Shown one piece after another: positions 25,223-25,661 of a stretch of 64,000 bases of DNA. The notes beneath the pieces are model-generated. The model saw only the letters and a list, made by a program, of their open reading frames with translations, was not told the origin of the DNA and made no database searches. Each line of letters starts with the position of its first letter. The first letter of the stretch is position 1. Both the position numbers and the translations under genes were made by a program. Where the stretch lies: the NCBI RefSeq assembly GCF_003150675.1, contig NZ_QGGB01000010.1, forward strand, positions 1 through 64,000. Direction: 5' to 3'. This stretch comes from Rhodohalobacter mucosus (GTDB lineage Bacteria; Bacteroidota; Rhodothermia; Balneolales; Balneolaceae).

Positions 25223-25244
25223 GTAGTGGCGGGGACAGGATTCG
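25223..25244 (-). repeat. duplicated 3' tail of the tRNA-fMet gene
   Basis: These 22 bases are identical to 25585-25606, which cover the discriminator base, the 3' acceptor strand and part of the T arm of tRNA-fMet plus four downstream bases. The two copies flank the GIY-YIG gene as direct repeats 362 bases apart. Just inside this copy is a palindrome CCTGTCCGTC-TACC-GACGGATAGG (25245-25268). Confidence 0.85.
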
Positions 25245-25282
25245 CCTGTCCGTCTACCGACGGATAGGAACCCGACAAGCTT

Positions 25283-25528
25283 TTAACTCAATAAATTGGC
25301 ACGAATCCAGCGACGGCCTACTGACGTTTTCAGCTGCTTCTCACGCTTTATCGCTTCAGACTTTGTGGCGTACTGCTCGGTATGAATTAACTTCCATGGG
25401 CGATATTTCACCGTCCAACCCTTAGTCCCCAGTTCATTGTGAGATTTCATCCGCTCGGTGAGATTACTTGTATGGCCAATGTATATCTTGTCATATTTGG
25501 ATGAATGCAATACGTAAACGGTGAACAT
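25283..25528 (-). CDS. small GIY-YIG nuclease-domain protein
   Basis: About 81 residues from the ATG at 25528, chosen because GGGAGAAGG lies just before it. The whole protein is a GIY-YIG domain of the UPF0213 type: VYVLHSSKYDKIYIGHTSNL (GIY-YIG strands), the conserved Arg in LTERMKSH, then WxxxY-like KYRPWKLIHTEQY and KREKQLKTSVGRRWI. Members are single-domain putative endonucleases of unknown role, related to intron and homing nucleases. It lies right after tRNA-fMet, between two copies of the tRNA 3' tail. Confidence 0.88.
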   Translation of the reverse strand: MFTVYVLHSSKYDKIYIGHTSNLTERMKSHNELGTKGWTVKYRPWKLIHTEQYATKSEAIKREKQLKTSVGRRWIRANLLS

Positions 25529-25544
25529 AACCTTCTCCCTCAAA

Positions 25545-25580
25545 TAAAAAAGGCTCAACCGCTTTGAGCAATCGAGCCTT
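25545..25580 (-). terminator. terminator downstream of tRNA-fMet
   Basis: Stem GGCTC (25552-25556) / GAGCC (25574-25578) with an alternative inner stem GCTCAA / TTGAGC, followed on the minus strand by a T-run (25551-25546). It ends the tRNA transcript 9 bases after the 3' end and overlaps the region just before the GIY-YIG start. Confidence 0.75.
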
Positions 25581-25588
25581 TTCTGTAG

Positions 25589-25661
25589 TGGCGGGGACAG
25601 GATTCGAACCTGCGACCTTCGGGTTATGAGCCCGACGAGCTACCAGCTGCTCCACCCCGCG
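25589..25661 (-). tRNA. initiator tRNA-fMet (CAT anticodon)
   Basis: A 73-base cloverleaf: acceptor CGCGGGG / CCCCGCC, D arm GAGC-AGCTGGTA-GCTC, anticodon arm TCGGG-CTCATAA-CCCGA, T arm GCAGG-TTCGAAT-CCTGT, discriminator A. Initiator hallmarks are present: position 1 does not pair with position 72 (C-C), D-stem pair A11-U24, and three G-C pairs at the base of the anticodon stem. CCA is not encoded (the sequence continues CTA), so it is added after transcription. Confidence 0.95.

Follow-up and report, generated by a model that had tools for sequence, protein, structure and literature searches.

A small GIY-YIG nuclease gene between tRNA-fMet and a broken, palindrome-bearing copy of it: a candidate tRNA-targeting mobile element in Rhodohalobacter mucosus and other bacteria

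Introduction

GIY-YIG nucleases share the catalytic residues Tyr, Tyr, Arg and Glu, and in homing endonucleases of the Seg type a separate DNA-binding domain follows the catalytic domain. Integrative elements use tRNA 3' ends as attachment sites, restoring the host tRNA. Among the closest described systems to the locus reported here is SegB of the T-even phages, a free-standing GIY-YIG enzyme that, according to the available text, cuts inside tRNA genes and whose presence leads to tandem tRNA copies with a C-terminally truncated segB (PMC13096335). That text gives the motif RAWTSGAAC and, as far as it extends, reports no preference for a tRNA isotype (PMC13096335); in our own comparison, reverse-complementing this motif gives GTTCSAWTY, the sequence of the T-arm. 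For mobile elements of T4, the accessible part of another account describes free-standing homing genes as being inherited through repair of a break in the other allele (PMC2988022). A link between UPF0213/Slx1-like proteins and tRNA genes was not found in the available portion of a 2006 survey of GIY-YIG proteins (PMC1564403), and the open-access literature, covered as titles and abstracts with subscription papers mostly outside, yielded no description of the elements reported here in bacterial chromosomes.

The locus described here lies in the window, by which we mean the whole 64,000-nucleotide stretch analyzed (positions 1 to 64,000 of Rhodohalobacter mucosus contig NZ_QGGB01000010.1). It resembles SegB, so far as the available text on SegB goes, in that a GIY-YIG gene sits beside tRNA genes with no intron. 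Unlike phage SegB, it belongs to a set found in bacterial chromosomes, whose enzymes have about 80 amino acids without an added domain and form lineages clustered by tRNA kind, and the window element has, in addition, a displaced tRNA tail and a palindrome-bearing tRNA copy. A direct repeat of the tRNA tail and a restored host tRNA are shared with tRNA-integrating elements; unlike those, the window element is only about 360 bp and has no recombinase gene. Unlike intron-borne and inteinic homing elements, it does not interrupt its target, the adjacent tRNA being intact. The element is thus different from free-standing GIY-YIG homing genes such as SegB in its single Slx1/UPF0213-like domain and its intact target.

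Results

A preliminary description of the window had reported an exact 22-base repeat of the end of tRNA-fMet, a minus-strand terminator after each copy and a nuclease as the only gene in between, and all of this was borne out. The 22-mer GTAGTGGCGGGGACAGGATTCG is present at both 25223-25244 and 25585-25606, a hairpin with a T-run comes after each copy on the minus strand (25201-25217 and 25548-25582, respectively), and the GIY-YIG frame is the only open reading frame of at least 50 aa wholly between the repeats; no integrase gene was found among such frames. A repeat search extended the direct repeat to 27 nt at 93% identity with a spacing of 362, and its 17-base core, allowing at most one mismatch, occurs at only two sites in the 3.9-Mb genome (2 forward, 0 reverse; controls, 0).

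Read along the minus strand, tRNA-fMet is followed in turn by a terminator, the GIY-YIG gene, a broken part-copy of tRNA-fMet and a second terminator. The intact tRNA-fMet, the host gene of the element, occupies 25588-25661 (tRNA-Met(cat) by ARAGORN; Rfam RF00005, 65 bits; initiator features by sequence). The tRNA-proximal terminator, an inverted repeat (GGCTCGATTG..CGGTTGAGCC) at 25548-25582, was assigned to the element because congeners have a similar one between fMet and the GIY-YIG gene; a similar terminator is also present without the gene in some congeners. The nuclease gene runs from an ATG at 25526-25528 to 25283 (25283-25528; 81 aa), and an alternative TTG start at 25558 is also open. 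Behind it lies the 5' part of the broken tRNA copy (25265-25280), which resembles tRNA nucleotides 22 to 37, and then a 16-bp palindrome, TCCGTCTACCGACGGA (25249-25264), which replaces the 3' side of the anticodon arm. The displaced tRNA 3' tail, comprising the T-arm and acceptor strand and constituting the second repeat copy, follows at 25223-25248 on the minus strand, and the displaced terminator at 25194-25217, also on the minus strand, includes GGCCGCTAAGAGCGGCC at 25201-25217 and is part of a flank common to congener G022. The 22-mer of the preliminary description was therefore exact but its second copy reaches farther than had been claimed, since approximately 25223-25280 resembles tRNA nucleotides 22 to 76 with the palindrome midway. 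The same description had allowed that the repeat might come from a second, decayed tRNA gene; it does belong to a broken copy of the tRNA, but palindromic copies of this kind recur with the arrangement (see below), so that this origin does not refute the insertion reading.

Apart from the tRNA, an Rfam scan gave only two matches, both under their gathering scores. The three open reading frames tested on the palindrome side were the GIY-YIG gene and those for a Fic and an HTH protein, and none was a Y1 transposase. The Fic-family frame (TIGR02613) encodes mobile mystery protein B and the HTH frame (TIGR02612) mobile mystery protein A; both lie immediately past the displaced terminator (window 23905-24951, minus strand) and are found at the same place in G022. 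Several TTGTTATAAATAACAAC-like inverted motifs, possibly operators of the mobile mystery protein A gene, lie upstream of it at approximately 24990-25070, and there are more in L172.

The window frame matched PF01541 with 58.8 bits against a curated cutoff of 22.6 (E = 6.8e-16), the match spanning residues 12 to 80 of the 91-aa frame. Residues Y4, Y15, G17, R25, H29, E62 and K66 were invariant among 39 aligned sequences. An AF2 model (pLDDT 96) contains the catalytic fold alone, and neither the domain match nor the model revealed a separate DNA-binding domain in the 81-aa protein, unlike the Seg-type enzymes. The nearest sequences of solved structure were those of UPF0213 proteins and Slx1 (1zg2, E = 5.9e-15), followed by I-TevI; Foldseek likewise placed Slx1 and UPF0213 first, with probabilities of 1.00 to 6seh and 1zg2, and gave no match at E ≤ 0.001. 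In both sequence and fold, and in having no extra domain, the protein is thus closest to UPF0213 and Slx1 (1zg2, 1ywl and Slx1), of which the UPF0213 structures carry the label hypothetical and Slx1 that of a structure-specific endonuclease subunit. The ratio dN/dS was 0.06 to 0.19 in five unsaturated pairs, the other 66 of 71 pairs being saturated. The window protein had no match among PHROG families at E = 0.001; L049 and L256 weakly matched phrog_7168 and phrog_314 (homing endonuclease). The enzyme thus looks like a nuclease that has been kept active, but one whose type lacks a DNA-reading domain of its own.

The preliminary description had read the locus either as a small element that inserts into a tRNA 3' end and regenerates it or as a duplication that carried tail and terminator, with a hint that the nuclease moves itself in a homing-like way; comparison of fMet sites within the genus supported insertion at the tRNA with a regenerated tail and terminator. 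The fMet tRNA was matched in all 28 genomes searched (R. mucosus included), several of these matches being short and partial, and inspection by eye of the sequence after fMet was informative in 19, again counting our own. Relatives do not all keep the gene: it was present in 10 (truncated in G015 and apparently damaged in G008) and absent from 9. As with Seg-type homing genes, occupied and empty alleles exist at one site. In G018, which is empty, the tRNA is followed directly by a terminator and flank; in G007, which is filled, a different terminator follows the tRNA, and the terminator and flank of G018 sit 373 bp farther on, behind the broken copy. The native flanks of the two are identical in 78 of 91 aligned columns; the control comparisons (54/70 and 72/102) had free end gaps and are weak, and it is the local match at +373 that carries the argument. 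The gene leaves the adjacent tRNA whole, and the tRNA of G007 is identical to that at the empty site of G018.

In the second comparison, the flank behind the broken copy in the window corresponded to the flank of G022 in 89 of 118 columns over the first 120 nt, and the match continues up to and through the mobile mystery A/B genes. In G022, the flank matching the displaced terminator of the window comes after an undisrupted tRNA 3' half, G022 itself not being a clean empty site, as 168 N lie inside its tRNA region. In four further genomes (G002, G010, G011 and G012), a terminator resembling that of the element follows fMet, with no gene in the sequence seen, which for G012 is only 99 nt. Insertion with displacement has occurred at some loci. 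The idea that the repeat is merely a decayed tandem tRNA was set aside, the native terminator being displaced in two fMet comparisons.

Tandem duplication or recombination is also at work. By eye, both tails of a locus usually have the T-arm of that host, as duplication in place would also produce, and about half of some 20 Met loci have similar terminators at both copies. These features would be expected if the nuclease gene were a resident that does not move and whose flanks were duplicated by unequal crossing-over, leaving decayed tRNA copies, and the broken tRNA arrays without a gene described below would be expected as well. Such an origin would not give the differing terminators, with the native one displaced, in G018/G007 and G022/G000, nor an anatomy that is repeated under 11 tRNA labels in R. 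mucosus and related genomes and in several phyla, and crossing-over leaves unexplained a palindrome at the same tRNA position in distant hosts. We consider it distinctly unlikely.

The possibility that the arrangement recurs elsewhere in the genome had also been raised, and it does, at five tRNA loci with small GIY-YIG genes. There are 10 GIY-YIG matches in the genome, 7 of them at tRNA-Leu(gag) (two tandem copies), fMet, Ser(tga), an elongator-type Met and Gly(gcc) (two tandem copies). By eye, a broken copy of the same tRNA lies beside the gene at all five loci, the Ser locus being reversed, with the broken copy upstream and the intact tRNA downstream. The remaining three matches are a UvrC-length protein, a frame of 287 aa and L006, a solo copy whose flanking repeat has 16 genome matches.

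The genome also holds arrays of related appearance. At tRNA-Asp (L027, 1600-2160), there are about six tandem units of approximately 101 bp and no nuclease gene, each unit being a tRNA-Asp tail with a TCCCGA palindrome and a terminator. Upstream of tRNA-Gly (L135, 3400-3857), tandem 101-bp units each contain a promoter-like stretch, a tRNA 5' part and a palindrome. In an rRNA operon (L015, reverse strand, approximately 1660-1740), tRNA-Ile and tRNA-Ala are separated by a broken tRNA-Ala copy that bears a TCCGCC palindrome, and sequence that we take to be 23S rRNA comes after it. Across all loci analyzed, tandem seven-base repeats were noted at L009 (1950-2088) and L146 (9700-9790), one of them at a contig end.

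A PF01541 search of 58 genomes (our own and 57 relatives) gave at least 103 GIY-YIG copies, counted as small open frames among the matches listed; long frames (UvrC and other long proteins) and a 157-aa frame (G025:C234) were left out, and L060, a single split copy, is counted twice in the 103. Among the matches listed, 51 of the 103 copies had a co-oriented tRNA within 330 nt, upstream in 45, at a median distance of 70 nt and representing 11 tRNA labels. We built a midpoint-rooted tree from 95 of the copies listed, excluding rows shorter than 62 aa; the overlapping L002 and L010 were dropped from the tree, from the flank and tRNA counts and from the palindrome and tandem-copy tests. Again among the matches listed, the tree split into a group in which 48 of 65 rows had a co-oriented tRNA within 330 nt and another in which none of 30 did (L078 of the latter has a tRNA at 337 nt). 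By eye, some of the 17 unlabelled rows in the larger group are at contig ends or are second tandem copies. The tRNA labels required 25 changes on the tree (minimum, 11) versus 46.2 when shuffled, and none of 200 shuffles was as low. Enzyme lineages thus group according to tRNA kind, with exceptions: tRNA-Pro copies occur in two places on the tree, and fMet and elongator Met occur in different ones.

Flanking direct repeats scoring at least 25 were found for 54 of 97 copies versus 11 of 761 cross-locus flank pairings among the matches listed, and for 15 of 30 in the group without tRNAs. Eight genes of that group (L006, L043, L064, L074, L078, L080, L118 and L127), all away from tRNAs, have direct repeats of intergenic sequence on their flanks, some with inverted-repeat ends. 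Where copies are in tandem, 13 of 18 distal ones were decayed, a contrast with the proximal ones that is biased, the latter having been chosen as open frames.

The layout of type III toxin-antitoxin systems is a structured RNA, a terminator and a nuclease, and the order of tRNA, terminator and nuclease here resembles it. The protein might accordingly act on its tRNA, with transcripts of the broken copies and their extra hairpins serving as decoy or antidote, and the tandem broken-tRNA units, some with a promoter-like start, and the clustering of lineages by tRNA kind would be in keeping with this. To our knowledge, however, GIY-YIG nucleases act on DNA, and a system working at the RNA level would predict neither the displaced native flanks nor a whole group of copies away from tRNAs. 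We regard it as very improbable.

At 37 of 47 Met and fMet loci, there is a part-copy outside the tRNA that retains the anticodon-side flank and the start of the T-arm, and in 42 of 52 such part-copies a perfect inverted repeat with arms of at least 5 lies between these landmarks, compared with 6.0 after shuffling. (L180, L181, L204 and L251, judged to be duplicate loci, and the partial L253 were dropped from these counts and from the interrupted-copy and tandem-copy counts.) The stretch replaced is nucleotides 38 to 47 in fMet, and in elongator Met it is the structurally equivalent one. Mapping of flanks placed it at 26 to 33 in Gly, 25 to 34 in Val(gac) and 37 to 46 in Asn, and in D- or T-loops in others; a tRNA match on one side of the palindrome sufficed for this mapping, so that its total of 77 of 106 loci is a loose count of which only the positions were used. 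Broken tRNAs in which a palindrome replaces a fixed stretch were found in Balneolota and Bacteroidota, and at Patescibacterial tRNA-Asn loci the palindrome is in the D-loop. Noise was high when interrupted tRNA copies in general were sought by 8-letter flanks: the search succeeded at 88 of 103 loci with the locus's own tRNA versus 54 to 60 of 103 with another tRNA, and only palindromic instances separated, at 122 versus 21 to 29 (23.0 after shuffling of the inserts).

Palindromes also occur away from the gene. Broken tRNAs bearing them without an adjoining nuclease gene include Asp (about six units), Arg, and Ala in the rRNA operon, and G005 and G014 have palindrome-bearing broken copies of fMet with no gene beside them; the palindrome is therefore not confined to present-day gene-carrying loci. 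The TCCCGA palindrome, TCCCGANNNNTCGGGA, has 41 sites in the genome (reversed pattern, 0), 18 of them within 600 nt of a tRNA start versus 0.38 expected, and TCCGNCNNNNGNCGGA has 43 (reversed, 3), with 5 near a tRNA start versus 0.40 expected. A general repeat process may lie behind the palindromes, since they are dispersed too. The view that they are a dispersed repeat fallen in by chance is weakened by the fixed tRNA positions and the enrichment at tRNAs. Short palindromes beside a small nuclease-type gene, also dispersed, recall the REP/RAYT systems; the window palindromes differ in their fixed tRNA positions and in that no Y1 transposase was among the three frames tested.

These observations bear on an alternative in which DNA structure is what matters. 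REP hairpins serve RAYT transposases and, somewhat alike, an Slx1-like nuclease would cut cruciforms or hairpins formed by the palindrome in the broken copy, or by the repeats of the other group, and the tRNA-bearing broken ends would recombine with the intact tRNA, the palindrome being a substrate and not a destroyed target. The proximity of the enzyme to Slx1 and UPF0213, the dispersal of the TCCCGA palindrome together with its enrichment near tRNAs and the repeats around copies away from tRNAs (15 of 30, and the 16 matches of the L006 repeat) fit this. So does the fact that palindromes stay palindromic while their letters change: in 24 pieces selected for equal length, 99.3% of cells were paired versus 94.2% after shuffling, and double-change cells numbered 9 versus 1.7. 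Against it, changes on both sides were seen in only 2 of 6 palindrome pairs, a pair count no better than shuffled (equaled in 194 of 500 shuffles), arrays persist without the gene, and dependence on structure by itself leaves the clustering of enzyme lineages by tRNA kind unexplained. We think this alternative unlikely, if far from negligible.

Seven fMet-type proteins used as queries against genome contigs found 79 loci, some overlapping those from the relatives and with L180, L181, L204, L251 and L253 still included. A co-oriented tRNA (at most 400 nt upstream or 500 nt downstream) was present at 56 of them: 38 Met, 10 Asn, 4 Val(gac) and four others, one untyped. The tRNA-associated loci belong to Bacteroidota, Balneolota, Rhodothermota, Cloacimonadota and Patescibacteria, and they include isolates (Olivibacter, Pedobacter, Alkaliflexus and Maribellus), which argues against an assembly artifact. 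Olivibacter sitiensis DSM 17696 (L183) and Alkaliflexus imshenetskii DSM 15055 (L223) are two of these carriers. Of the 23 loci without a tRNA, about ten end within approximately 150 bases on one side; in the flanking sequence present at the remainder, including those of Marinimicrobia and Chlorobiota, a tRNA was not found. Related enzymes in Cloacimonadota are at tRNA-Asn. Patescibacteria have the gene upstream of tRNA-Asn, at four loci to which one further bacterial locus can be added, or upstream of tRNA-Lys. It comes there behind a 5' part-copy bearing a TCCGCC..GGCGGA palindrome, which in the Asn cases is in the D-loop.

On a tree of named loci (73 columns, labelled by phylum, with six rows and a further three containing a stop left out), Bacteroidota needed 11 changes and Balneolota 4, but the phylum labels as a whole were clustered, at 15 changes versus 25.8 when shuffled. 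With clustered labels and only 73 columns, this tree leaves transfer between phyla unproven. A tblastn search of plasmids and phages gave only 3 plasmid and 2 phage records, all below 60% identity.

Discussion

We lean, though only just, toward reading the locus as a minimal tRNA-targeting, homing-like mobile element of about 360 bp that spreads as a free-standing homing gene does. The element would comprise a terminator, a gene for a single-domain GIY-YIG nuclease and a broken tRNA segment with a palindrome. Lying in a tRNA gene, it would keep the tRNA whole by supplying or duplicating the 3' part, with the native tail and terminator pushed downstream; in the tRNA-Ser and Patescibacterial cases, the 5' part would instead be displaced upstream. 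From this arrangement we infer cleavage, self-transfer and a role for the palindrome, as follows. The nuclease would break an unoccupied tRNA gene of the matching kind, repair using the intact tRNA as one homology arm and the displaced tail as the other would copy in the element, and the palindrome would mark the destroyed cut site in the spare copy. What homing-type repair requires is present in the window element: each side offers homology, the second arm being the displaced tail. In favor of this reading are the displaced native terminators, the five tRNA loci in the genome, the clustering of lineages by tRNA kind, the flanking direct repeats, the recurrence in several phyla, the low dN/dS values, the decayed distal tandem copies and the precedent of SegB.

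Several observations tell against it: the single-domain protein is nearer in fold to Slx1/UPF0213 than to I-TevI, the two tails usually share a T-arm, terminators are often alike at both copies, element-like terminators and palindromic arrays occur without the gene, and matches on plasmids and phages are few. Above all, the presumed target is not destroyed as it is in classical homing, since the tRNA adjoining the gene is intact and, in G018 and G007, identical. Self-cutting would therefore have to be inefficient, or the target would have to depend on some other feature, such as DNA structure. It is because the tRNA left beside the gene is whole that we keep the cutting of palindrome structures by an Slx1-like enzyme, unlikely as we judge it, beside the homing-like reading that we marginally favor.

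Taken further, and as a possibility about which we are doubtful, the loci could represent an undescribed class of minimal (approximately 360-bp) autonomous elements, made up of structure-selective Slx1-like lineages with one tRNA kind each and using the palindrome-bearing broken copy as a recombination substrate; the gene-less arrays would be nonautonomous derivatives, and the repeat-flanked copies away from tRNAs would be a second branch. If the homing-like reading is right, these would be among the smallest self-spreading DNA elements, residing in essential tRNA genes that they leave unbroken. They would explain both small GIY-YIG genes with no assigned role and hairpin-bearing broken tRNA copies, and they would provide naturally occurring nuclease lineages, each paired with a single kind of tRNA.
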